Source: Pelagicoccus sp. SDUM812005 | Lineage (GTDB): Bacteria; Verrucomicrobiota; Verrucomicrobiia; Opitutales; Opitutaceae | Direction of reading: 5' to 3' | Length of the DNA: 64,000 nucleotides | Assembly: GCF_031127875.1 (NCBI RefSeq) | Contig: NZ_JARXIA010000011.1 | Coordinates: 62,001 to 126,000, forward strand | Part shown: positions 44,460 to 60,526 of the stretch, in pieces | Numbering within the stretch: position 1 is the stretch's first letter | Layout: the number at the start of each line of letters is the position of its first letter | Notes under the pieces: model-generated | What the model saw: only the letters and a program-made list of their open reading frames with translations | Told to the model about the DNA's origin: nothing | Database searches by the model: none | Position numbers and translations under genes: made by a program

Positions 44460-46844
<2,385 letters not shown>

Positions 46845-47027: not shown

Positions 47028-47666
47028 TCAAGTGAGCGAGATGAGCTCGTGCTTGATGGCGTAGCGGGTGAGGGCTGCCACGTCGTGCAGGTTGAGCTTG
47101 CGCATGATGTTCGTGCGGTGGTTGTCCACGGTGCGAACGGAGATGTTCAAGCGGGATGCGATCTCCTTGGTGGAGAACGACTCGGCCACGAGCTGCAGGA
47201 TTTGCTTTTCGCGATCGGAAAGGGGGATTTCGCTGGAGGCGGCATCGGGGTTGAGGATGAGCGAGCGCATGACGCTGGCCATCTTCGGTCCGATGAAGGT
47301 GCCGCCGCCGGAGATGATATCGAGAGCCTTCTTGAACTCGTCGAATCCGTCCATCTTGTCGACGTATCCCTGGGCTCCGGCCGACAGCAGTTCGCGGATG
47401 TTCGCGGAGCTCGCTCTTCCGGAGAATACGAGGACTTTGACACCAGGTACGTGCAGGGTAAGGCCGCGCAGAACTTCCGTTCCGCTGAGTTCGGGGAGGC
47501 CGACGTCGAGGATAACGGTCTCGGGTTTTAGCTTAATACACCCTTGCAATCCTTCTTCTCCGGTCCCGAACGAGCCTACTATCTCATAGCCCGGAAGCAT
47601 GGAGATGAACTCAGAGACCATTTCTCGGATTGCGGTTTGATCTTCAATTATTACGACGCTTTTCAT
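47028..47666 (-). CDS. NarL/LuxR-type response regulator
   Basis: 212 residues. The receiver domain has VVIIEDQTAIREM (acidic pair), VILDVGLPELSG with the phospho-acceptor Asp, VLVFSGRAS and YVDKMDG with the Lys. The C-terminal LuxR helix-turn-helix reads LSDREKQILQLVAESFSTKEIASRLNISVRTVDNHRTNIMRKLNLH. Phosphorylation would allow DNA binding. It is upstream of the hybrid kinase gene on the same strand and is probably its output. Confidence 0.93.
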   Translation of the reverse strand: MKSVVIIEDQTAIREMVSEFISMLPGYEIVGSFGTGEEGLQGCIKLKPETVILDVGLPELSGTEVLRGLTLHVPGVKVLVFSGRASSANIRELLSAGAQGYVDKMDGFDEFKKALDIISGGGTFIGPKMASVMRSLILNPDAASSEIPLSDREKQILQLVAESFSTKEIASRLNISVRTVDNHRTNIMRKLNLHDVAALTRYAIKHELISLT

Positions 47667-48082
47667 TGTTAAGAGATTTTCCTTTTGCTCCTTTGGTTTA
47701 CGGAGCTGGGAATCTTTTCTTAAGCGCCAATGCGCAGGATCCTTGGAGTGATAGGCTCTATGTCGGTGGGATTCTGCGGAGCGTGGAGTGGGGAGGATCT
47801 CCGCTTTGCCTCTGTAGAAGGGGAATTTAAGGAGGATTCCTCAGCGTGGGGAGGCCTAGGTAAAATTATTGGAAAAAGCGGACGGGCGGCGGGCTGGGGG
47901 AATTTTCTTAGCCGCGGAATCGCTTTTTCGCTAGGGCCCTTAGGGGCGGGAGGCGGCATGGCGGCGTGGCGGCACAAATAAAGGCGGGCCCCGGTTTCCC
48001 AGAGCCCGCCATCCTATTCCTGCACCACAAAATGTGAGGGGCGGTATTGCTACCTTATCTTCTTACTACCTAAAAAGTCGGC
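47667..48082. other. 416-bp stretch without a confident gene
   Basis: It contains the leader of the LuxR-type regulator (minus strand, with AAAGGAAAA before the start) and, at its far end, the terminator of the actin gene. A plus-strand frame 47730-47981 would encode 83 residues with a signal-like start (MRRILGVIGSMSVGFCGAW) but its glycine-rich remainder and lack of a ribosome site make it doubtful. I see no RNA gene. Confidence 0.5.
47977..48010 (-). terminator. Rho-independent terminator after the actin gene
   Basis: On the minus strand GGCGGGC and GCCCGCC form a 7-bp GC stem, extended inwards by CTGG/CCGG, with a GAAA centre, followed by TTTATTT. It lies 73 bp after the stop. Confidence 0.8.
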
Positions 48083-49201
48083 TTATCGAAGCAGGGTCTG
48101 CCACTGGCGTTCCTTGGCCTGGAAGGCGGCGGTGATGGCGCCGGTCGCAACGCGGGTCTTGTAGTCTTCGCCTACGCTGGTGACCTTGCAGCCTTCGAAC
48201 CCTTCGTCGGAGAGGAGCTTCTGCAGGGCAGAGTCGAGTCCCTTGATCATGCTTCCGCCACCAGTGATGATGATGTTTTGCAGGAGGTCGGGGATGCTGT
48301 CGGGATCTGCTTTTACGATGAGGGTGCGAACGGCCTCGTAGATCTTCTTGAGCAAGGTGTCGCAGGCGGTGCCGACGGCGTCGGAAACTTCGAGCTGCTT
48401 GATCTTGCCGCTGATCATGACGGGGTGGGTCGCGTGCTGGGTGGAACCCTGCACGAAAGAGTGCTTTTCCTTGATCTCGCGGCACTTGGCGATGGAGATC
48501 TGGCTGTCTGGGTACTTGTTGAGGAGGGACTCCTGGATGGCCTCGTCGACAGCGTCGCCGGCGAAGGCGAAGGAGATCTGGTCTTCGGCGGACGGGTAGT
48601 AGCCTTGGATGAGGCAGACGTCGGTAGAGCCGGCGCCGATGTCCACGAAGAGGGAGTTGCAGACGGGGTCGACGTAGTCGGCCTTGACGAGCTGAGCTTC
48701 GTCGCGGCTGCCGAGGGCGGCGAGGAAGGGCTCGGGGATGAGGATGACCTTGTCGAAGATGCCGGTTACGGCGAGACGGGTGTTTTCGCGAGCCTCGGAG
48801 TCAGCGTTGGCTGGCATGCCGATGACGGCGCGGACTTCTGCGTCGGGCGAGATGCCGGCGGTTTCCTTGAGGTGCACGAGGAAGTCGCGGGCGGCGTCCA
48901 TGTCGGCGATGATGCCGTCGCGGAGCGGTTGGATGAGGTTGAGGTGCAGCTTGTATTTAAGTGCGAGCTGACCGAAGAGGGCGGTCGCGTCGCCGGGGAT
49001 GATGCCGGGGAGGATGCCTTCTGTAGTGTAGCCGACGATCGAGGGGATGAGCTCGGAGGCGACGACTTTTCCGGTGGTGGGCTTGGCGACTTGGACGCAG
49101 GTGGTGTTGGTGCCGAGGTCGAGCCCGACAAGAAGGAGTTCCTGTTCGGTTTCCTTCGCTTTGGTTTTCTTGGGAGCGGTTTTGGATGTTGTGATACTCA
49201 T
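48083..49201 (-). CDS. MamK-like bacterial actin (filament-forming ATPase)
   Basis: 372 residues with the actin/Hsp70 ATPase fold. Phosphate 1 loop GLDLGTNTT at 26-34, a connecting region with SIVGYTTEGILPG, QPLRDGIIADMDAARDFLVH and VRAVIGMPANA, catalytic-type IPEPFLAALG with Glu 157, phosphate 2 loop VDIGAGSTDVC at 186-196 and adenosine loop GGGSMIKGL at 314-322. GAGSTD, the long AEDQISFAFAGDAVDE block and EIKEKHSFV match MamK, the magnetosome-aligning actin, better than MreB (which has GGGTTE). No magnetosome gene is in the window. It probably polymerises on ATP; what it positions is unknown. Residues 1-20 are a basic tail. The upstream gene, 55 bp away, is its likely partner. Confidence 0.8.
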   Translation of the reverse strand: MSITTSKTAPKKTKAKETEQELLLVGLDLGTNTTCVQVAKPTTGKVVASELIPSIVGYTTEGILPGIIPGDATALFGQLALKYKLHLNLIQPLRDGIIADMDAARDFLVHLKETAGISPDAEVRAVIGMPANADSEARENTRLAVTGIFDKVILIPEPFLAALGSRDEAQLVKADYVDPVCNSLFVDIGAGSTDVCLIQGYYPSAEDQISFAFAGDAVDEAIQESLLNKYPDSQISIAKCREIKEKHSFVQGSTQHATHPVMISGKIKQLEVSDAVGTACDTLLKKIYEAVRTLIVKADPDSIPDLLQNIIITGGGSMIKGLDSALQKLLSDEGFEGCKVTSVGEDYKTRVATGAITAAFQAKERQWQTLLR

Positions 49202-49256
49202 TTTTTGTGGTCGGTTAGATTTCGAGTTGTTGATGCAGGGGACGTATCGAGCGGAA

Positions 49257-49859
49257 TTAGCCTTTCAGAATAGGATCTATTTGGGCGTCGTTCATTTCTT
49301 GCACGATGTCGTCGAGTGAGAGGATGGAGTCGGCGAGGATCTCGTTGTCGGCGCTTTGCAGGGCATCGATCATTTCGCTGACGTCTCCGAGCTTCACGCG
49401 GCGGTCGCCGGCTTGGAAGCCGAAGGAGGTGGGCTTTTTCTCGTCGCTGTAGGTGGGGCGCACCCAGGAGCCGGCGAGCTCTTCTTGGCGCTTGGCCTTC
49501 TGCTGCTCCAGCTTGGTGACGTAGAGGGAGCGGTACTTGGCGGCGATGCGTTCCTCGACTTGCGGGATGATGCGCTTGACGAGGGTTTCCTTGAAAAGTC
49601 TTTGCAGCTTCTGGCCTTGGTCGACGATGCTTTGCTCGCGTGTGAACATGTCGCGCAGGTCGGCCTTGGCGTCTTCCTTGAGTCCGGAGGGGAGCATTTG
49701 CATCCACTGCTTGATGAGCGGGGGGAGCTCCTCTTTGATGATGCGACGCGATTCCCACTCCTTGCCATCACGGTGGAGGATACAGGCGTGGCGGAAACGC
49801 GTTACTATGGCGTCCCAGCGCTCCTGCGCTCTTTCTGTCACTTTCATCGATGCGATCAT
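49257..49859 (-). CDS. Putative partner protein of the MamK-like actin (unknown family)
   Basis: 200 residues, soluble and highly charged. The first two thirds look helical and coiled-coil-prone (ELPPLIKQWMQMLP, FKETLVKRIIPQVEERIAAKY, VTKLEQQKAKRQEEL). A short linker follows and then an acidic C-terminal tail (ADSILSLDDIVQEMNDAQID), a shape often used as a binding peptide. I know no family for it. ATG 49859 (MIASMKVTERAQ) or ATG 49847 may be the start. It precedes the actin gene by 55 bp on the same strand with no terminator between. The leader carries two GCGCCAAACTT-like direct repeats. Confidence 0.75.
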   Translation of the reverse strand: MIASMKVTERAQERWDAIVTRFRHACILHRDGKEWESRRIIKEELPPLIKQWMQMLPSGLKEDAKADLRDMFTREQSIVDQGQKLQRLFKETLVKRIIPQVEERIAAKYRSLYVTKLEQQKAKRQEELAGSWVRPTYSDEKKPTSFGFQAGDRRVKLGDVSEMIDALQSADNEILADSILSLDDIVQEMNDAQIDPILKG

Positions 49860-50784: not shown

Positions 50785-51055
50785 GGGTCTGGGGGCGCAG
50801 TGGCTCGTTGAGAAGAATTTTACTTAAATGATAAAACTGTAATGTTGCCGCAACCGAAGCGTAATCTTGGGCTGCTAGCTTCGGCAGGCTTATGGAAAGG
50901 GAATGGGTCGTGTGGGAGCGTTTATCTTTGGAAGGATCCGGCTCGAGGCGCAACAATGTTGCAAAGCCGTTAGTCTCTTAGCACTTTACACCGATTGAAG
51001 CTTCCGTTTGGAACTCTCGAGACAATCCCAAACCCCTAGAATCTGTATTATTTGT

Positions 51056-51490
51056 ATGAAGAGGAAAAATAGTTTTCGCGGTAAGAAGTCCGGTTTCACC
51101 TTGATGGAAATCTTGTTGGTCCTGGGCTTGATCGGGCTTTTGGTTTCGGTGGTGGTCGTTAACGCGGGCGGAATCTTCGGCGACCAGAAGGTCAAGATGA
51201 CCCAGATGAAGATCAAGGATTCGTTGAGCGTACCGCTTTTCAAGTACATGACGGATACGGGGAGCTACCCGACTACGGAGCAAGGCTTGCAGGCGCTTTG
51301 GACGAAGCCGGCGAACGACCGCGGACGTTGGCGCGGGCCGTACGTGAAGGATCAAGAGGCCTTGGTCGACGCGTGGCAGCGGGATTTCAAGTACCAGTAT
51401 CCGGGCGTGAAGAACCAAGGCAGCTACGATTTGTATTCACTGGGTGAAGACGGGATCGAATCGGGCGACGACATTGGTAACTGGAAGTAA
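51056..51490 (+). CDS. gspG: Type II secretion major pseudopilin
   Basis: 144 residues. The leader ends in Gly before FTLMEILLVLGLIGLLVSVVV; the prepilin peptidase cuts G-F and methylates the Phe, and Glu at +5 is present. The globular part has TGSYPTTEQGLQALWTKP and a calcium-loop end DLYSLGEDGIESGDDIGNW, both diagnostic. It forms the periplasmic pseudopilus. ATG 51056 gives an 11-residue leader (MKRKNSFRGKK) and fits; the frame is open upstream to 51008. It heads the secretion operon; TATTAT 5 bp ahead may be a -10 but would leave almost no leader. Confidence 0.95.
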   Translation: MKRKNSFRGKKSGFTLMEILLVLGLIGLLVSVVVVNAGGIFGDQKVKMTQMKIKDSLSVPLFKYMTDTGSYPTTEQGLQALWTKPANDRGRWRGPYVKDQEALVDAWQRDFKYQYPGVKNQGSYDLYSLGEDGIESGDDIGNWK

Positions 51491-51529
51491 GCTGGGCTTC
51501 CGGGAGGAGGGCTTGCTGCAGAGGCTTGC

Positions 51530-52060
51530 ATGAGGCATTTTTCAGGAGTCAGCCGAAGAGGCTTCACGCTGTTCGAGCTGCTGCTGGTGCTGGCCTTGAT
51601 CGGACTTTTTTCGACGGTCTTCGTGCTCAATATCAACTCTCTCATGAAAGACGGGGAGATGGATACGCTGGAGCGCGAGTATTGGAGAGCGGTGGAGGCG
51701 GCCCGCACGAACGCTGTATTCAAGCAACAAGCGCACTACTTGGAGTGGGATCCGAAGGGGAACCGCTTTCTGGTGGTCTCGGGCGGGGCGGCGTTGGCCT
51801 TTCCCGTGGAAATCGAGTCGCCGGTGGAGCTGGACATCGAGGTACGTTTCGAGGAAGTCGCTCCGGAGAACAGCTACGTCTTGATCGCGGGGCAGCTCGT
51901 GCAGACGCGGGAGATCGCGAAGGCCGGCTTTTTCCCGGACGGTACGTGTTCGCCTTTCGAGGTTTCGATGAAGATCGGAGACTTCGAGACGCGTTTCCAG
52001 ATGGATCCTTGGACGGGCGTGCAGCTCGTGAACCCGAACGAGAATGAGGCGGGGATCTAA
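51530..52060 (+). CDS. gspH: Type II secretion minor pseudopilin, GspH-like
   Basis: 176 residues. RRGFTLFELLLVLALIGLFSTVFVLNI is a type IV pilin-like leader and helix, cut G-F. The remaining domain (WRAVEAARTNAVFKQQAHYLEWD) has the GspH/FimT pattern. It would lie near the pseudopilus tip. A GAGGAGGG sits about 20 bp before ATG 51530 in the 39-bp gap after gspG. The next gene begins inside its last codons (17-bp overlap). Confidence 0.8.
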   Translation: MRHFSGVSRRGFTLFELLLVLALIGLFSTVFVLNINSLMKDGEMDTLEREYWRAVEAARTNAVFKQQAHYLEWDPKGNRFLVVSGGAALAFPVEIESPVELDIEVRFEEVAPENSYVLIAGQLVQTREIAKAGFFPDGTCSPFEVSMKIGDFETRFQMDPWTGVQLVNPNENEAGI

Positions 52061-52538
52061 GCGCGAGAGAAGGGAGTCCCGCTTCGGTCGGAGCGGCTTT
52101 ACCTTGTTGGAGGTCTTGGTGGCTTTGGCACTGTTCTTCATGGCGGTTACTTATTTCTCCATGACCTACCTGAACACCTTGATGGCGATCGAGGGGACTC
52201 GTTTGAACCAAGGCTTGGAGCAGGACATGGCGGCGATTCGCCGGCAGGCTCTCTTGATCGCGGACGTGGAGGAGCTGGAGGAGGGCGGCGACGTGGTGAC
52301 GGGCGAGCATGGATTGGCCCGTTGGACGGTGGAGTACGAGCCGACGCAGGTAGCGGATCTCTTTTTGGTAACGCTTTCGGTGGAGCTTGATCCGGTGGAC
52401 GAGGAGAAGGGGGTACGGGAAGCTACGGAGCAGTTTTACCTGACGCGGCCCAGTTGGTCGGAGCCGACGGAGCGTGACGAACTGCGGGCGGCAACCAAGG
52501 AGCGGCTGTTGGAAAGGCAGCTGAACATCAAGCAATGA
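52044..52538 (+). CDS. gspI: Type II secretion minor pseudopilin, GspI-like
   Basis: 164 residues. A long basic leader (MRRGSKRERRESRFGRSG, 18 residues) precedes FTLLEVLVALALFFMAVTYFSMT, cut after Gly. The body is acidic (VEELEEGGDVVTGEHGLARWTVEYEP). The position between gspH and gspJ and the LEVLVALALF segment support GspI, which starts the tip complex with J and K. It overlaps both neighbours, so translation is coupled. Confidence 0.78.
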   Translation: MRRGSKRERRESRFGRSGFTLLEVLVALALFFMAVTYFSMTYLNTLMAIEGTRLNQGLEQDMAAIRRQALLIADVEELEEGGDVVTGEHGLARWTVEYEPTQVADLFLVTLSVELDPVDEEKGVREATEQFYLTRPSWSEPTERDELRAATKERLLERQLNIKQ

Positions 52539-53197
52539 GGCGGCGCGGAAATCAGGCTGGCTTCACCTTGCTGGAGGTGCTTTTGGCGGTGGCCTTGGGG
52601 GCGATGATCATCGTTTCCATGACGAGCTTCCTGTTCAGCATGGCGGAGCTCTGGGGAGTGGGCTCGAACGAGCGTCTCTTCCAGAAGCATGCCCGCGGGG
52701 TTTCCCGTTTCATCGAGAACAGCTTCCAGAAGGCCAGCCACCGCTACAACGAAGCGGAGAACGGGAACGAGTCGCTGTTCTGGTTTAACTGGGAGGGCGA
52801 CGATACGACGCGCGAATCGTTTTTGAGCTTCGAGCTGAAGGAGAGCCCGGGAGCTTTGATCTGGCCGGAGAATCCGTTGCCGCACGTCGTGTGCTCGCTG
52901 CAGTTCGACCCAGACGAAGGCTTGTTCTTGCTTTGGCGTTCCCGCTTGGAGGAGGTCTTTGCGGACGATCCGCCGCGCCGCACCTTGATTTCGCCCTTCG
53001 TGAAGGAGGTCGAGTATCATTATATCAACTACGAAGAAGAGAATCCAGAGTGGGAGATCGAGACGACTCCCCTGCAGGAGGCGGACGATTCCTACCTGAT
53101 GCCGGAGCGGATCGTCTTGAAGTTTCGTTTCAAGGGTGAAGAGGTGACGCGCCAGCTGATCTTGCCTAAGATAATGGAAGGGACGCCGATCTTATGA
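52535..53197 (+). CDS. gspJ: Type II secretion minor pseudopilin, GspJ-like
   Basis: 220 residues. Leader MRRRGNQAG then FTLLEVLLAVALGAMIIVSMTSFLF. The periplasmic domain is beta-rich and ends with VEYHYINYEEENPEWEIET and RIVLKFRFKGEE, as in GspJ. ATGA overlap with gspI, and it overlaps gspK by 4 bp as well. GspJ joins GspI and GspK in the pseudopilus tip. Confidence 0.8.
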   Translation: MRRRGNQAGFTLLEVLLAVALGAMIIVSMTSFLFSMAELWGVGSNERLFQKHARGVSRFIENSFQKASHRYNEAENGNESLFWFNWEGDDTTRESFLSFELKESPGALIWPENPLPHVVCSLQFDPDEGLFLLWRSRLEEVFADDPPRRTLISPFVKEVEYHYINYEEENPEWEIETTPLQEADDSYLMPERIVLKFRFKGEEVTRQLILPKIMEGTPIL

Positions 53198-54225
53198 AGG
53201 GGGCATTTCCAAGAAAGAGGCAGGGGTCGATCCTGCTGCTGGTACTGGTGCTGATCGTGGTGGTTTCCTTTGCCCTGACCATGTTTATCGAAAAGGCCCA
53301 AGTGGAGATCAAGGGCGAGGGCTACTACGTGAAGCGGGCCGAGCTGCGCAAGGAGGCCTGGTCGATGATGGAAGTAGCGGTCGCGGTGTTGGCGGACGTG
53401 AAGGCGATCGACACTGCGCTCTACTCTCCTTCGCAAGGGTGGGGAGATCCGCTAGAGTACGCGAACGTTTCGCCGCGCGAGGGCTTGGATGTTCGCTTCG
53501 AATTCATAGACGAGAGCGGTAAGGTAAATATCAATACATTGGATCGCGATTCCTTGATCCTGCTGTTCGACGAGCTTGGTTTCGATCTGGAGATTTCGTC
53601 GCGCTTGAGCGATGTCTTGCTGGACTGGATCGATGGCGATGACGAGACGCGGATCGAGGGAGCGGAGTCGCGGGAGTACAGTTCGCTGGAACTGGACGTG
53701 CGTCCTGCGAACCAGGAGCTGAAGTCCTTGGACGAGCTGCGCTACCTTTTTGGCTTTCAGGAATTGTTCTTCGACGAGAGCGGAGCGCCTTTGCCGGTGT
53801 TTCGGCAGCTTGAGCAAGCGGTGAGCATCTACGAGGTGACTTCCTTGAACGTGAACGCGGCGTCCTCGCTGGCCTTGCGGGCGATCGCGGACTTGGACGA
53901 GTTCGACAAGCAGGCGATCGACGAGTTCTTGAAGGGCTTCGACGGACAGCTCGGAACGAGCGACGACAACTATTTCGCCACCGCTGACGACGTCGCGGCG
54001 GTGTTGGTCGACATTCCCGAGGGCGCTCCGCTGGGCTTCCAGATTTCGGTGCTGACGATCAAGGTGACCGTCAGCGAGGGTGGTTACCAGTTCACGCTGA
54101 TTGGAACCTTGAGCGTGGATACGGAAGCGCCAGCTTTGGAACAAAGTGGTGGGAACCTTAGCTATCCTTTTCTTTTCCTCGATTTGAGGGAACAGCCGGG
54201 CTCTAATAATGCTCGACCCTTATAA
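53194..54225 (+). CDS. gspK: Type II secretion tip pseudopilin
   Basis: 343 residues. RQGSILLLVLVLIVVVSFALTMF is the atypical pilin helix of GspK: cut after Gly, but without Glu at +5, which is normal for the tip subunit. The large domain has DESGKVNINTLDRDSL and DVLLDWIDGDDETRIEGAESREY, the GspK signature with helix-hairpin-helix-like segments, and later TSLNVNAASSLALRAIADL. It starts ATGA-coupled to gspJ. The GspK cap is thought to regulate pseudopilus length. Confidence 0.9.
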   Translation: MKGAFPRKRQGSILLLVLVLIVVVSFALTMFIEKAQVEIKGEGYYVKRAELRKEAWSMMEVAVAVLADVKAIDTALYSPSQGWGDPLEYANVSPREGLDVRFEFIDESGKVNINTLDRDSLILLFDELGFDLEISSRLSDVLLDWIDGDDETRIEGAESREYSSLELDVRPANQELKSLDELRYLFGFQELFFDESGAPLPVFRQLEQAVSIYEVTSLNVNAASSLALRAIADLDEFDKQAIDEFLKGFDGQLGTSDDNYFATADDVAAVLVDIPEGAPLGFQISVLTIKVTVSEGGYQFTLIGTLSVDTEAPALEQSGGNLSYPFLFLDLREQPGSNNARPL

Positions 54226-54251
54226 CATTTGCCTAGAGATTTTCGCCAGTC

Positions 54252-55436
54252 GTGTCTTTCCCCTCAAAATTTAAACCCAAAGCCCAAGCGTATGAGCTAG
54301 ACGCCTTTATGGCGCCGGCTCATTGGTTTTTCTGCCGCCGCATCGAGATCCCGTCCGATTTGGAAAAGGGAGAAGAGGAGGGCTTCGCCCTTTTGGAGCT
54401 GGAAAACGTGTCGCCGTTTCCTTTGGACCACCTGCATTACGGTTTCCGTTTGGACAAGGCAGGGCGGTACGCTTTCGTGTTCGCGGCCTACAAGCGTCGC
54501 TTCGAGAAGGTCGACCAAGCGGCTTGGAAGCGCGGGGACGCGGTGCTGCCGGATTTCTTGTTGGGCTTGCATGCGAACGCGAAGGGCGAAGACGGTTTGG
54601 CGCTGGTGACGGAGAAGTCGTTCGCGGCGTTTTCCTACGACGAAAAGTCGGAGCTGCCGGCCGCGTTTTACGCGGAAGCGAGGGAGTTCGACGGGCCGGA
54701 CGGTGAAGAAGCGCCGTCGGTGAAGAGCCAGCTCAACCGTTTCGAGTCGATTGCGAAGAGCCGGCTAGGCGTTTCCCGTTTCCGTATTTGGTACGCCAAT
54801 ACGGAGGCGAAATGGGTGGGGCCAACTGCTTGGTTCGGAGCGGTGGATTCCAGCGAGTCGCCGGTGGCGAAGGTGGATTTCAGCCGCTCGCAGCTTTGGA
54901 AGGCGGACCTGCGCGATCCGGAGCAAATCGAGCAAGCCCAGAAGACGGAGCGGCAGAACGCTCTCCTGTGGAAGGGTGTGGGAGGCTTGGCGGCGTTGAT
55001 AGCGATCATCGTGCTGGGCGAGGTGTACTGGGGCCTGAGTTCGGCTTACCTTTCCTACCGCAATTCCGAGATCGCGGAGCGAGCGCCGCTGGTGGAGGAA
55101 ATCCAGGGCTTGCAAGTGACCAGCAATACCTTGCGCGACTTTTTGGAGTCGGACCTGAAGCCCTTTGACATGATCGAGGCCTTGCTGCCGTTGCAGCAGC
55201 ACCCGAACATCATTTATCGCAAGTTCGAAACGGAGGGGCCCGACGTCTTGGTTATCGATGCGAAGGCAGCGAACCAAACGCAAGTGACGGAGTTCAAGAA
55301 GCGTCTCGATCGCTTCGACAAGATCGAATCGGTCGAGCTGTCTAAGCAGGTGAACAAGCCGACTGGTTCCACTTTTACGGCTACGATTCGCTTCAAGTTT
55401 GGAGCGTTCTATCAACTGGCAGGAGGAACTCAGTAA
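54252..55436 (+). CDS. gspL: Type II secretion inner-membrane protein, GspL-like
   Basis: 394 residues. The cytoplasmic first 240 residues have the divided actin-like fold expected of GspL/PilM (YAFVFAAYKRRFEKVDQAAW, LALVTEKSFAAFSYDE) but no ATP-binding motif. One membrane helix (GGLAALIAIIVLGEVYWGLSSA, about 240-260) and a periplasmic ferredoxin-like domain (RKFETEGPDVLVIDAKA, ATIRFKFGAF) follow. It recruits GspE to the membrane. Sequence similarity to known GspL is weak; context decides. The start is GTG 54252; ATG 54309 would remove 19 residues. Confidence 0.7.
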   Translation: MSFPSKFKPKAQAYELDAFMAPAHWFFCRRIEIPSDLEKGEEEGFALLELENVSPFPLDHLHYGFRLDKAGRYAFVFAAYKRRFEKVDQAAWKRGDAVLPDFLLGLHANAKGEDGLALVTEKSFAAFSYDEKSELPAAFYAEAREFDGPDGEEAPSVKSQLNRFESIAKSRLGVSRFRIWYANTEAKWVGPTAWFGAVDSSESPVAKVDFSRSQLWKADLRDPEQIEQAQKTERQNALLWKGVGGLAALIAIIVLGEVYWGLSSAYLSYRNSEIAERAPLVEEIQGLQVTSNTLRDFLESDLKPFDMIEALLPLQQHPNIIYRKFETEGPDVLVIDAKAANQTQVTEFKKRLDRFDKIESVELSKQVNKPTGSTFTATIRFKFGAFYQLAGGTQ

Positions 55437-56014
55437 TGGCTAGAAGCGATACAAGTTTCGCGGCGCGGCTGTCCGTTTTTTTGGTTAAGGCTCGCCGAGC
55501 TTTCTTCAAGATGACCATGCGCGAGAAGGTGCTGGCTCTGTTGTTCGCGTTCGCCCTGGCCTTGGTGTGGGGCTCGTGGCAGCTCGACCGCCAATCCCTG
55601 CTAAAGGACAAGCATTGGGATGCGAGCGTGGTCGAAACGAGCCAGCAGAATTGGTTGGACGAAGAAATGCGGCATCGAGGAACGTACGAGTCGCAGAAGG
55701 CTGAGATCGATCTCGGTAGCCTGCCGACGCGAGACGAAGTGAGCGGGCAGATCGACTCTTTGGTGCGCCGCGCTGGCTTTTCCACCTTCGATTTTCCGCC
55801 GCCGCGCACGGAGGTCGGAGCGGAGATGAACTTTCACACCTTTCAACTCGTCGTCCAGAAGGCGACGTATTCAAAAATCAAGAACTTCACGAAAACGATA
55901 AAGGCCGAATTGCCGTACCTGAGTCTGGAGCGTGTGGTGATACAGGCTCAGGAGAGGGATGACGACTTCCTCAATGTCCGCTACGTTTTTAAGTCTATCG
56001 AATATACGAAATGA
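55436..56014 (+). CDS. gspM: Type II secretion inner-membrane protein, GspM-like
   Basis: 192 residues. A short cytoplasmic tail, one membrane helix (VLALLFAFALALVWGSWQL, about 32-50), a helical linker and a ferredoxin-like end domain (FHTFQLVVQKATYSKIKNFTKTIKAELPYLSLERVVIQA). This is the GspM/PilO layout; identity is by topology and by position after gspL, with which it shares the bases TAATG. It would dimerise with GspL. The next gene overlaps by 4 bp. Confidence 0.68.
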   Translation: MARSDTSFAARLSVFLVKARRAFFKMTMREKVLALLFAFALALVWGSWQLDRQSLLKDKHWDASVVETSQQNWLDEEMRHRGTYESQKAEIDLGSLPTRDEVSGQIDSLVRRAGFSTFDFPPPRTEVGAEMNFHTFQLVVQKATYSKIKNFTKTIKAELPYLSLERVVIQAQERDDDFLNVRYVFKSIEYTK

Positions 56015-58230
56015 GTATTTGGGTGAACAAGACAATCACCGCGGTCCTGTCGATCGCCTGCGCCTTGGGGGCAGCCTTTCAATTGAACGCTCAGGACCAG
56101 GACCTGTTGCGGGTCATCCCGAATCCGGACGAGAAGGTCGCCAACTACAAGGTGGTGGACCAGGAGTTGGAAGGGACGCTCGAGATCTTGTCGGAGATGA
56201 CGGGGCGGGCGATTTTGCGTCCACAAGCTTTGCCGACTCCTAAGATCACCTTCGACAGCGGCGGCCAAATCACGGTGGGCGAATTGACCTTGGCTTTGGA
56301 GAGTTTGCTGAGCCTTAACGGCATCGGCATTTCTCCGTTGGGCGAGCGATTCCTGAAGGTCGTGCCCTTGAGCGAAATCCGCACCCAGGCCCCTGAGCTC
56401 GTGGTGGAAAGTCTCGCCGAGCGGCCAGCCAGCGGCAAGGTCGTGAGCAAGCTCTTCCGTCTCCAACATTTGGATTCGCAAACCTTTCAGCAGCAGATCC
56501 AGCAGTTCCTGAGCCCGGGGTTTAGTTCGATCATCCCGTTCCAGAATTCCAATGCGGTGATCGTGACGGATACGATCAGCAACCTACAGCGCCTCGAGTA
56601 CGTGGTGAGCGAGGTCGACAAGCCGTCGCGCCTGAACATCGAACCTGCGTTTTATACCTTGCAGTTCGCGCAGGCGAGCGAGGTCGCCCAGCAGGTCCAG
56701 CAGATGATCGAGGACGCTCGCAGCCGTTTCGGAGATCAGACGAATGCCAACACCGGCCGTCCCAACGGCGGCAGGCGCAACAACCCTGAAGGCGAGGGAC
56801 CCGGTCCGGTCGCGGCAGAGGGGAATTCGATCAGCCAGATCCTCTTCGGATCGAACACTGCGATTTCGGCCGATGATCGCACCAACCAGATCATCATCAT
56901 GACGGCCCCGAGCAACTTGAAGTTCTTCGAGGACATCATCCAGAAGCTCGACATCAAGGCGGACCCGTCCACCCGTATGGAAGTGATCGCGCTCAAGCAT
57001 GCGGACGCGACCGAGGTCGCGTCGTTGCTGAGCCAATTCGTTTCCGGCAAGTCCAATAGCGATAGCAACGACCGGACAAACAGTAATGCTGACGCGAATA
57101 CGCGAAACAATCGCCGAACGGGCGCGGGAAATCCTACCTTCTCCAACAACAACGACGCTACCCCGGCCAACAACGTTGCCCGGAACAATAATCAGGCAAA
57201 TTCAACCGCTACCTCCGGCGAAGAGCGCGATAGCCAGTTCAGCACCTTCATGACGATCCTTGCGGACGAGCGCAGCAACGCGTTGGTGATTTCCGGAACG
57301 CGCAACGATTTGGAGCTGATGAGCGCTTTGGTAGGCAAGATAGACGTATTGCTCCCGCAAGTACGCATCGAGGTAATCATTGCAGAGGTTAACCTCAACG
57401 AGTCGCGCGGTCTGAATCGAGGCATGGATGCCTTTAGCTTGAACTACGAGGAGCAGGCGGATGGATCAGGCAATGTTGAGGTTCCGGGGATCAATATTCT
57501 CGGACTCGGCGTTGGAGGTACCTTCAACTACGACGACGGGGTCATTTCAAACCTCTCCCTCAGCGCGATCTTGGATCAAGCCCGTACGGATTCCGACGTG
57601 CAGCTGCTATCGGTTCCGACTTTGGTTACGACCCACAACAAGGAAGCTAAGATCATCGAGGCCGTTTCCTATCCGATCATCACGAGTTCCCAGAACTCTT
57701 CGATCTCCGATACGTTTAGGCAGTCCGTGCAGTACCAAAATATCGGTATTGAAATGGTGGTGACGCCTCTGATCGGTCCGAACGACGTTATCCAGCTAGA
57801 GATCGACCAAACGATCGACGATATTTCGGGAAGCGTGACGATTGGTGGAAACGAGCAGCCAATCATCAGCAAGCGCCAAGCGACTTCTTACGTGAGCGTT
57901 TCCAATGGCGAGATGGTGGTCCTTGGCGGGCTGCAAAAGAACAAGCTCGATACGGATCGCACCCGCGCGAATTTGCTGGGCGAGATCCCGCTGCTCGGGA
58001 AGCTTTTCCGTACTAAGACGAAGGAGAGCACCAAGAGCGAGTTGATGGTATTCCTTCGCCCGCAGGTTATTCGCACCACGGACGACGTGAATGCGGATGC
58101 GATGAAGAAGCTGCGCGAACTCGAGGGCGCGCGTGCCATTCAGGAGTTTTTGGAAACAGGCAATATCGATGTGACCCAGCCTCGCGCTGAACCGGGCGAG
58201 GCTCGTTCCGCGAAGTCTAAGGGTAACTAA
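56011..58230 (+). CDS. gspD: Type II secretion secretin
   Basis: 739 residues. A signal peptide (MSIWVNKTITAVLSIACALGAAFQLNA) is followed by N0-N3 domains (KVVSKLFRLQHLDSQTF, RLEYVVSEVD, MEVIALKHADATEVASLLSQFV), the secretin domain (VRIEVIIAEVNLNESRGLNRG, ILDQARTDSDVQLLSVPTLVT, YQNIGIEMVVTPLIG, VVLGGLQKNK, IPLLGKLFRTK) and a charged tail. It forms the outer-membrane pore. An Asn/Thr/Ser/Asp-rich linker (about 345-405) interrupts N3, and a second Asn/Gly-rich one lies at about 245-270. The gene follows gspM rather than gspC, an unusual order. Confidence 0.93.
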   Translation: MSIWVNKTITAVLSIACALGAAFQLNAQDQDLLRVIPNPDEKVANYKVVDQELEGTLEILSEMTGRAILRPQALPTPKITFDSGGQITVGELTLALESLLSLNGIGISPLGERFLKVVPLSEIRTQAPELVVESLAERPASGKVVSKLFRLQHLDSQTFQQQIQQFLSPGFSSIIPFQNSNAVIVTDTISNLQRLEYVVSEVDKPSRLNIEPAFYTLQFAQASEVAQQVQQMIEDARSRFGDQTNANTGRPNGGRRNNPEGEGPGPVAAEGNSISQILFGSNTAISADDRTNQIIIMTAPSNLKFFEDIIQKLDIKADPSTRMEVIALKHADATEVASLLSQFVSGKSNSDSNDRTNSNADANTRNNRRTGAGNPTFSNNNDATPANNVARNNNQANSTATSGEERDSQFSTFMTILADERSNALVISGTRNDLELMSALVGKIDVLLPQVRIEVIIAEVNLNESRGLNRGMDAFSLNYEEQADGSGNVEVPGINILGLGVGGTFNYDDGVISNLSLSAILDQARTDSDVQLLSVPTLVTTHNKEAKIIEAVSYPIITSSQNSSISDTFRQSVQYQNIGIEMVVTPLIGPNDVIQLEIDQTIDDISGSVTIGGNEQPIISKRQATSYVSVSNGEMVVLGGLQKNKLDTDRTRANLLGEIPLLGKLFRTKTKESTKSELMVFLRPQVIRTTDDVNADAMKKLRELEGARAIQEFLETGNIDVTQPRAEPGEARSAKSKGN

Positions 58231-58247
58231 AAACGGGAGGGATTGGC

Positions 58248-58826
58248 ATGATCGGGAAAATGATAATCGGCTGGGCCCTGTTGGCTGCAACGGTAGCTAC
58301 CGCCCAGGTAGCGGACGGCGAGGCTACCGACATTAACCCGTTCGGAACGCCAGCGCCTCAGGTGAATACGGGACCGGTTGTCGAGAACGTGGCACCTTCC
58401 TCGCTCGACCAATTTCAGTTCAATGGGCTGATGGTCATGAACGGAAAGGTTCGTATCAGTTTGTTCGATGCGAAGGAGAACAAGAGTTTTTGGATACGCC
58501 AAGGTCAGCTTGGAGAATACGGTATAAGCTTTCAGCGTTTCGACGAAGAGAACGAGACGGTGGTCATTTCCCAAGGCGGAGTGACTAAGAAGCTTTCGCT
58601 CAACAAGGTTAAAATCGAACCGTTGAAGATTTCGGCCCCGCGCAATACGATTGCCATGCCGTCGCCGCCCACGCCGGGAAGCGTGACGCGGGCGACTCCG
58701 GGGAACCGGGTCGAAACGGATGAAGAAGCGCGTGAGCGCATCCAGCGAGTGGCGGAGGAGATTCGCCGCCGTCGAGCGGAGCGCCGCCAGCAGCTAGAGA
58801 ATCGCAACAATGGAGGCTCGAACTGA
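58248..58826 (+). CDS. Periplasmic/inner-membrane protein, GspC-like
   Basis: 192 residues. An N-terminal hydrophobic segment (MIGKMIIGWALLAATVATAQ) is a signal peptide or anchor. The middle has FQFNGLMVMNGKVRISLFDAKENKSFW and VVISQGGVTKKLSLNKV, the pattern of the GspC homology-region/PilP domain that binds the secretin N0. The tail (ARERIQRVAEEIRRRRAERRQQ) is a strongly charged helix in place of the PDZ or coiled coil of classical GspC. GGGAGGGATTGGC before ATG 58248 is a good ribosome site. Identity rests on position between gspD and gspE, so I leave the symbol empty. Confidence 0.6.
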   Translation: MIGKMIIGWALLAATVATAQVADGEATDINPFGTPAPQVNTGPVVENVAPSSLDQFQFNGLMVMNGKVRISLFDAKENKSFWIRQGQLGEYGISFQRFDEENETVVISQGGVTKKLSLNKVKIEPLKISAPRNTIAMPSPPTPGSVTRATPGNRVETDEEARERIQRVAEEIRRRRAERRQQLENRNNGGSN

Positions 58827-58834
58827 GAGCAGGT

Positions 58835-60526
58835 ATGCAGATTGTCGATACAGCATTTGAAGATCGCTTCGAGTTGACGGAAGAGCAGCGGGCGGAGATC
58901 GCGGAAGCGAGGCGCGGCGAACGGCTGGAGCGGATCGCTCGCTATGCGGGCCGTAGCTTGAACGAGTTAGTAGGGGAGCTGGCGGAGTTTTGCGGCTTCG
59001 AGCAAGTGGAGCCCAGTCGCTTCGATTTGAAGGCCTTGCAACGGGTTCCGCTGCGCATCTTGCACGAGTTTCACTGCGTACCGATCGGGCCGGTCGACGA
59101 GGAGGACGAAGCTCCGCCGTTTACGTTGGCTACAAGTTGGCCGATCAGCGACGAGATGGACGACTGGGTGTACGCTGCTTGCGGCGAACGTCCAGTTTGG
59201 GTCGTTGCCCACCCGGAGCGTATTTCAAATTTCATTACGCAAAATTTAGGCGTCGGCGCGGAGAGCTTGGACGATTCCTTCGATTTGGAAGCGGAGCTTG
59301 CCATCGAGCAGGTCGAAGAGGAGGAGGACGAGGACGCGGCGATTATCCGTTTCGTGAACGAGGTCTTCAACCAGGCGATCTCTGGGGGCGCTACAGATAT
59401 TCACTTCGAACCGATGGAAGACCACTTGCGAATCCGCTATCGGATCGATGGCTTGCTGGTCCCTGTTCCTGTACCCGAAAACCTGAGACGCTTCCAAGAC
59501 GCGATCGTGTCGCGCCTGAAAATCATGGCGAAGCTGAACATTTCGGAGCGGCGCTTGCCTCAGGACGGTCGCATCAACCATCGGGTCGGTTCTACGACTT
59601 TGGACATTCGCCTTTCCACGATGCCGGTCATGTACGGCGAGAGCATCAGTTTGCGTCTGCTCAACAAGAAGGACAAGCCGCTTAGCTTGGCCCAGCTCGG
59701 CATGTCGGAGCGGGATTCAGAGGTCGTGAACCGAGTGTTGAATTTGCCGCACGGGATTATCCTGGTCACTGGCCCGACGGGCTCGGGTAAGTCGACATCC
59801 TTGAACGCCTTTATTCGCTCCATCAATTCGGACGATCGTCGCATCATCACGGTTGAGGATCCGATCGAGTACGAGGTTGCGGGAGTGAACCAGATCCAAG
59901 TGAAGCCCGACATCGGCTTTGGCTTCGCGGAGGCCTTGCGGCACGTGCTGCGTCAGGATCCGAACGTGATCATGGTCGGGGAAATCCGAGACCGGGAAAC
60001 GGCGGACATCGCGGTGCAAGCGTCGCTCACCGGTCACCTGGTTTTTTCCACCTTGCATACGAACGACTCGGCGGGGGCGATCACTCGATTGATCGATATG
60101 GGAGTGGAGCCGTTCCTGATTGCTTCCAGTGTGGAGATGGTCATCGCCCAGCGCTTGCTGCGTCGCGCTTGCCCGAGCTGCATGGGCATGCGGGCGGCGG
60201 AACCGCAGGAAGTCGAGGATGCCTTGCGAGTGCTGGACCTGAACCCGGATTTGGCGGAGGGAGTTTTGCAGTTGCCTGAAAGTTGCGGTTGCGAGACGTG
60301 TCGAGGGATTGGATACAAGGGGCGTATCGGCATTTATGAAATTTTGCGGGTAACGGAAAAGATGCACGATCCGATCGTGCGTCGCGAGGCTGCCCCGGTG
60401 ATTCGTCAGCTCGGTTTGCAGGCGGGGATGGTTTCGCTTGGCAAGTCCGGCTGGAATTTGGTGAACCGCAAGCTCACGACTTTGGAAGAGGTGGTGCGTA
60501 CGATCTCCGTGAAGGAAGGCGAGTGA
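58835..60526 (+). CDS. gspE: Type II secretion ATPase
   Basis: 563 residues. The N1/N2 region (1-150) is followed by ATDIHFEPMEDHLRIRYRIDG, Walker A GPTGSGKS, the Asp box ITVEDPIEYE, Walker B-like VIMVGEIRDRETADIAVQASLTGHLVFSTLHTND (His box) and the tetracysteine zinc site CPSCMG...CGCETC. The hexamer drives pseudopilus assembly through GspL and GspF. It contains a Glu/Asp-rich linker at about 165-178. It follows the GspC-like gene by 8 bp. Confidence 0.95.
   Translation: MQIVDTAFEDRFELTEEQRAEIAEARRGERLERIARYAGRSLNELVGELAEFCGFEQVEPSRFDLKALQRVPLRILHEFHCVPIGPVDEEDEAPPFTLATSWPISDEMDDWVYAACGERPVWVVAHPERISNFITQNLGVGAESLDDSFDLEAELAIEQVEEEEDEDAAIIRFVNEVFNQAISGGATDIHFEPMEDHLRIRYRIDGLLVPVPVPENLRRFQDAIVSRLKIMAKLNISERRLPQDGRINHRVGSTTLDIRLSTMPVMYGESISLRLLNKKDKPLSLAQLGMSERDSEVVNRVLNLPHGIILVTGPTGSGKSTSLNAFIRSINSDDRRIITVEDPIEYEVAGVNQIQVKPDIGFGFAEALRHVLRQDPNVIMVGEIRDRETADIAVQASLTGHLVFSTLHTNDSAGAITRLIDMGVEPFLIASSVEMVIAQRLLRRACPSCMGMRAAEPQEVEDALRVLDLNPDLAEGVLQLPESCGCETCRGIGYKGRIGIYEILRVTEKMHDPIVRREAAPVIRQLGLQAGMVSLGKSGWNLVNRKLTTLEEVVRTISVKEGE

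Follow-up and report, generated by a model that had tools for sequence, protein, structure and literature searches.

Among the actin-like systems of bacteria, MamK systems use adaptors such as MamJ and McaA/McaB, and the ends of the ParM filament are tethered by ParR, a DNA-binding protein of plasmids with a ribbon-helix-helix domain. In the study of crenactin and arcadin-2 (PMC5173319), ParR on ParM is given as the bacterial case of groove binding, and the archaeal arcadin-2 is a protein of about 200 residues encoded in the same gene cluster as crenactin. According to the same study, arcadin-2 has a core, an unstructured linker and a conserved C-terminal helix; this helix sits in a hydrophobic groove of crenactin, to which it binds with nanomolar affinity, and causes the filament to depolymerise, the credit going to a tryptophan of the peptide (PMC5173319). 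BeeR, an actin family of Verrucomicrobiota published in 2025 with a solved filament structure (8R2N), is the family closest to MamK (25–30% identity), was described from non-magnetotactic bacteria, forms a three-stranded tube with ATP and has a disordered N-terminal extension of 30–50 residues; the BeeR of O. terrae polymerises alone in vitro (PMC11929497). According to its authors, the function of BeeR is not known, and the main text names no partner gene for it (PMC11929497).

The window analysed here, a stretch of 64,000 nucleotides from Pelagicoccus sp. SDUM812005, encodes an actin-like protein and, directly upstream, a second protein that we call the partner. The earlier note, made from the sequence alone, read the two as a MamK-like actin and an adaptor that position some cargo. 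Both open reading frames are present, on the same strand and 55 nt apart (Table 1), as are the motifs by which the actin was likened to MamK (GAGSTD, AEDQISFAFAGDAVDE, EIKEKHSFV and LLQNIIITGGGS). Judged by profile scores, however, the actin is a BeeR, not a MamK. In the NCBIfam search, of the kind that the note had called for, it exceeds the curated cut-off of the BeeR equivalog model, whereas it falls far below the cut-off of the MamK model (228 bits against 400) and below that of the MreB model (90 bits against 293); Hsp70-type models of Pfam and NCBIfam give marginal scores only. The closest solved structure is the BeeR filament 8r2n (399 bits, 363 residues aligned with no gaps), followed by MamK 5jyg (153 bits, E about 1e-43). 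Across the whole genome, the MamK model matches in two places, the window BeeR and an MreB encoded elsewhere (G000:C53), both below its cut-off; the note's statement that no mam gene is present agrees with this result and with the Pfam scan of 12 neighbouring proteins. MamK, which is also the closest well-known actin to the BeeR family as a whole, is the next-best model, and the resemblance of the window protein to it is real but already explained, because the window protein is a BeeR. The part of the earlier reading that stood is therefore that the actin lies outside MreB and is akin to MamK in sequence; the family assignment did not. To the same profile evidence, the window actin is a further member of a recent, already known family.

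Table 1 Features of the partner/BeeR locus (positions in the window)
Feature	Position	Strand	Basis
Probable intrinsic terminator downstream of BeeR (12-pair stem and TTTATTT)	47983..48010	-	Terminator scan
BeeR-family actin-like protein, 372 aa	48083..49201	-	NCBIfam NF053558, 580.2 bits, cut-off 530; PDB 8r2n, E 1.2e-118
Lys/Thr-rich N-terminal extension of BeeR ahead of the fold, about residues 1-22	49136..49201	-	BeeR model match begins at residue 23
Gap of 55 nt between partner and BeeR genes	49202..49256	-	Gaps of -4 to 143 nt in 47 pairs, with start codons set by rule, which affects the lengths
Gene for the partner (200 aa, unassigned to any known family), which precedes BeeR	49257..49859	-	ORF; homologues directly upstream of BeeR at 47/54 loci; dN < dS
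C-terminal helical motif of partner, VSEMIDALQSAD, residues 160-171	49347..49382	-	Strict motif in 46/47 partners, relaxed motif in 47/47
Variable low-confidence linker of partner, residues 131-158	49386..49469	-	pLDDT < 50 at 141-152; length and sequence vary among homologues
Predicted helical core of partner, residues 9-130, helical hairpin and long helix	49470..49835	-	AlphaFold2, ten-residue block mean pLDDT 92-98 over 11-130

A tree, also proposed in the earlier note, was built from 54 BeeRs (see below), 20 MreBs of Opitutaceae, all of which score over the MreB cut-off, and one MamK. The 20 MreBs form one side of a branch with an SH-aLRT value of 100, with the BeeRs on the other side, which together with the MreB score excludes an MreB identity for the window actin; the MamK branch (5.35) is too long for placement, so that the tree separates BeeR from MreB only.

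The O. terrae BeeR (B1ZZL4, PDB 8R2N; PMC11929497) belongs to the same family as the window protein, which is about 50% identical to it but has a shorter Lys/Thr-rich N-terminal extension, 22–25 residues compared with the 30–50 published for the family. The window BeeR keeps the equivalents of the cross-strand contacts E153, I277, L284, T307 and L385 and has S, L, N, D and V in place of E149, R157, R242, N246 and Q310, with the paper's numbering not fully matched to the printed 8r2n chain (Arg252 and Asn380 correspond there to H and Q, and N stands at 379, where the window protein has R). In all nine BeeRs of the clade that contains the window protein, positions 157, 242 and 246 are replaced (by L, by N, A or S, and by D, respectively), whereas all nine retain E153, L284 and L385, and eight retain I277. 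The contact positions vary in the O. terrae clade, too, with R157 in 15 of 27 proteins, E149 in 13 and Q310 in 4. Because three of the contact residues are replaced throughout the window clade, the three-stranded tube should not be assumed for the window BeeR; the substitutions neither assure nor exclude it.

From strand and spacing only, we infer that the partner and BeeR genes are co-transcribed as a two-gene operon. The terminator that the earlier note had assigned to the pair lies downstream of the actin gene and has the longest stem among the four terminator-like sites of the window, a number not in excess of the shuffle mean of 4.3; no sigma-70-like promoter was found for the pair. In each of the two genes, dN is below dS in all seven homologue pairs computed (one partner dS is saturated); by this measure, each is under selection as a protein-coding sequence.

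The 12 neighbouring proteins scanned comprise two-component, DUF480 and type II secretion proteins and two that match no Pfam family; no magnetosome family was found among them. The DUF480 gene lies upstream of the pair on the same strand. Divergent from the pair, a type II secretion operon (window 51008–60523, + strand) encodes GspG, other N-methylated pseudopilins, GspK, secretin and GspE. At all nine window-clade loci, BeeR is flanked by genes related to type II secretion, which are not clustered at the other loci. Downstream, on the strand of the pair, lie genes for a LuxR-family response regulator (47028–47666, − strand) and a PAS hybrid kinase (44460–46844, − strand); the LuxR-family regulator adjoins BeeR in eight of the nine window-clade loci.

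The partner is linked to BeeR far beyond the window. A family sample of 100 genomes yielded 40 strong BeeR loci in 38 genomes (493–614 bits), and a class sample of 384 genomes added 14 further strong loci, for a set of 54 loci in 52 genomes. An iterated profile search, seeded with the 200-residue window protein alone and run against the 3,800 open reading frames of at least 60 residues around these loci, converged on 47 partners, one per locus, all on the same strand as BeeR and ending less than 500 nt before the BeeR core; no other reading frame among the 3,800 matches the partner profile. The synteny search that the earlier note had suggested thus places a partner homologue directly upstream of BeeR at 47 of the 54 loci, or 48 if a fragment is counted in which the C-terminus of the partner sits at a contig end; in that genome, an N-terminal piece of a partner lies at the end of a second contig. 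The note had staked its reading on this linkage and on an actin outside MreB and Hsp70, and on both points it has held. The adjacency of the pair is kept while the other neighbours differ between clades, and where a genome carries two strong BeeR genes, as two genomes do (L099 and L102; L101 and L106), a partner precedes each copy. The O. terrae locus (L069), where the BeeR sequence includes the printed 8r2n chain without a single mismatch, is among these pairs, with a gene for a 153-residue partner 47 nt upstream.

Six of the 54 BeeR loci (L072, L084 and a clade of four, L115 and L119–L121) have no adjacent partner, and the partner profile found none elsewhere in these six genomes; BeeR can therefore do without the partner. 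Conversely, within the samples searched, the partner is largely confined to genomes with BeeR. In the family sample, 37 of 100 genomes match the partner profile; 36 of these are among the 38 with BeeR, and the one match among the 62 without BeeR is a fragment truncated at the end of its contig. The class sample gave matches in 29 of 384 genomes, 24 of the 28 with BeeR and 5 of the 356 without. These counts come from overlapping samples, are uncorrected for relatedness and may miss some proteins, given that at most 36 (family) or 9 (class) partner candidates were scored per genome and that BeeR was sought in the class sample at E up to 1e-60. Among the five BeeR-less matches of the class sample, one is a remnant (G336), one is marginal (G301, E 8.9e-4) and three are intact partners (G233, G409 and G447). 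The remnant (L144, G336:C2:127615-128106) is a decayed partner with several in-frame stops in a genome where no BeeR was found; G336 shares its genus with two genomes (G048 and G078) that carry an intact pair, in an apparent case of loss of the whole module. In a phylum sample of 387 genomes, BeeR was found in 18 at E up to 1e-40, all in the family or order of the window.

Comparison of protein distances adds weak support for the link. MreB sequences were retrieved for 20 genomes, of which 18 were compared (one without a partner, G013, and one with two BeeR genes, G010, were left out). Across these, partner and BeeR distances correlate with r of 0.74, and the partial correlation given MreB is 0.49; the support is weak because the raw correlation between partner and MreB (0.73) is as strong.

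The partner itself has no described family in the databases searched or in the literature, which, the partner being nameless, was searched via BeeR and MamK. The best named relative of the window protein, at 96% identity, comes from Pelagicoccus sp. SDUM812002. Neither Pfam nor NCBIfam has a model that the window protein matches above cut-off (the only Pfam match is YpjP, E 0.1), and PDB, PHROGs and PADLOC give no match. The profile of the 47 partners finds nothing in the PDB up to E 1; searched individually against Pfam, the 47 proteins hit 16 families, each in one or two members only and none consistently (best E 0.00098). For the predicted structure, the best Foldseek match in the PDB has E 1.6 and the best VIA-align Z is 7.5, in the range that the tool calls ordinary for helical models; the absence of a fold match does not mean a new fold. 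By none of these comparisons (profile against PDB, Foldseek, VIA-align) does the partner match a known actin modulator.

The average column identity of the 47 partners is 20%, and a C-terminal motif is common to them. In the AlphaFold model of the window protein, which is all-helical and has no strands, the predicted core includes a long helix at residues 58–130, which fits the coiled-coil tendency ascribed to the protein beforehand; W15, W52, L68 and F72 are invariant in the 22 closer homologues. Beyond the linker, a C-terminal helix is modelled at residues 160–179, within the acidic tail that had likewise been noticed (11 D/E and 1 K/R at 159–200). The C-terminal element reads roughly (I/V)-(A/S/P)-D-(M/L/F)-(I/L)-(D/E)-x-(M/L), position 6 being D in 43 partners and E in four. 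The strict motif occurs within the last 70 residues of 46 of the 47 partners, compared with a mean of 2.9 and a maximum of 8 in 500 tail shuffles, a contrast that is indicative and overstates significance, the pattern having been written after the alignment was seen.

We regard as evenly poised the proposition that the two genes form a chromosomal operon, one encoding a BeeR filament and the other a dedicated binding protein, either a regulator or an adaptor. The window BeeR would bind ATP and polymerise, as reported for its O. terrae orthologue. In the partner, a predicted helical core would lead through a flexible linker to the conserved amphipathic C-terminal helix, and this helix would dock on BeeR. 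Its most likely site is the hydrophobic groove that separates subdomains IA and IIA, the one used by arcadin-2 on crenactin and by ParR on ParM. The core might dimerise or hold another component, and the partner would determine the place or the duration of BeeR polymerisation. It could do so by sequestration of monomers, like arcadin-2, or, like ParR, as a tether for filament ends.

A C-terminal helix that docks on BeeR is the likeliest reading because the partner shares the layout, gene position and conservation pattern of arcadin-2. By comparison with the account of arcadin-2 (PMC5173319), both proteins have a core, a linker (variable in the partner) and a conserved C-terminal helix and are encoded beside an actin; the comparison is one of architecture, not of homology, and the tryptophan of the arcadin-2 peptide is absent from the partner motifs. 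The pair may likewise resemble ParM–ParR, for which the same study describes an actin-like ATPase and a small adaptor that binds a hydrophobic groove (PMC5173319). The partner, for its part, is modelled without strands and has no match in the plasmid collection; the absence of a fold match does not exclude a ParR-like domain.

The one structural prediction that bears on docking at most leans against it. The heterocomplex that the earlier note had proposed to model was approached through a read-through chain of the partner and BeeR of locus L086, in which the C-terminal helix of the partner is modelled again, but the motif has a pLDDT of 50–57, compared with 69–74 in the window partner alone; BeeR and the first two partner helices are of fair to high confidence, and the second half of the long helix falls to 63–69. 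This model, based on an alignment of 15 rows, compared with 47 for the window partner alone, and carrying no interface scores, gives no sign of docking.

More specifically, and a little more tentatively, the partner may be the first known example of a new protein family dedicated to binding BeeR, and BeeR half of a chromosomal actin-plus-modulator system of Verrucomicrobiae under C-terminal-helix control like that by arcadin-2 or ParR, whether convergent or ancient. What is new here is the partner family and its pairing with BeeR, the BeeR family itself being already known. The partner gene upstream of that for the purified O. terrae BeeR provides a concrete handle on the regulation of BeeR and on what BeeR holds, and the family bears on the question of arcadin-2-like actin modulators encoded by the chromosomes of bacteria.

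It is possible, if rather unlikely, that the partner is instead a cargo or membrane adaptor of the MamJ or McaA/McaB kind that rides BeeR filaments, with the C-terminal helix on the filament side and the core on the cargo, and exerts no control over polymerisation. Such adaptors are used in MamK systems, the conserved pairing and C-terminal motif would be expected of one, and the very variable linker length suits a tether, but neither Pfam nor the AlphaFold2 model of the partner revealed a domain for membrane anchoring or for cargo. A membrane anchor could have been supplied by a small coiled-coil protein with a C-terminal anchor, encoded directly upstream of the partner at 10 of the 54 loci (L074, L081, L087 and seven others; also at L147). 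However, genes of this kind occur in 72 of the 100 family-sample genomes, more than have BeeR, and lie near a BeeR or partner gene in only 10 of those 72, so we rejected it as a third component. For the filament-plus-adaptor module of the earlier note, then, the conserved, linked partner stands and its architecture makes an adaptor plausible.

The claim that the module positions some other cargo found no support. In the family sample, genes for bacterial microcompartment (BMC) shells occur in 23 of the 38 genomes with BeeR and in 36 of the 62 without (p 0.84), and show no association. Flagellar rod genes are associated with BeeR only loosely, being found in 30 of 38 BeeR genomes and 30 of 62 others (Fisher p 0.003) and, among genomes of at least 4 Mb, in 28 of 31 with BeeR and 15 of 26 without, both comparisons being uncorrected for relatedness. 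Rod genes were not matched in eight of the BeeR genomes; unless assembly gaps account for all eight, BeeR cannot depend on flagella as its cargo. The BeeR genomes are larger than those of their BeeR-less relatives (median 4.65 and 3.65 Mb, respectively) and more often flagellated.

We consider it unlikely that the partner serves a process separate from that of BeeR, with the linkage reflecting shared expression and not contact. The six BeeR loci without a partner, the three genomes with an intact partner in which no BeeR was found and the unsupportive L086 model would all fit such an arrangement. Against it stand the adjacency that is kept amid differing neighbours, the partner before both BeeR copies of the two-copy genomes and the decay of the partner where BeeR is gone (G336); furthermore, the strict motif is found in none of the three BeeR-less intact partners, and the relaxed motif in one.

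That the actin is a magnetosome MamK displaced from its cluster is a notion with next to nothing left to it, already refuted at the level of family membership: MamK is the next-best model and structure after BeeR, but the protein is far below the MamK cut-off and above that of BeeR, no protein of the genome exceeds the former, and the BeeR family was described from non-magnetotactic bacteria (PMC11929497). An origin from plasmid or phage partition was rejected as well, with the plasmid collection giving, for the actin, six weak matches at 27–30% identity (four annotated as rod-shape proteins, two of these as MreBH, and two without annotation), and PHROGs two weak matches, to the actin only. 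A defence system was rejected for want of a PADLOC match.

In the window clade, the partner tail (window 49257–49382, − strand) contains a second stretch, LDDIVQEMN, that follows and resembles LGDVSEMID; to judge from this similarity, it is perhaps a duplicated docking motif.
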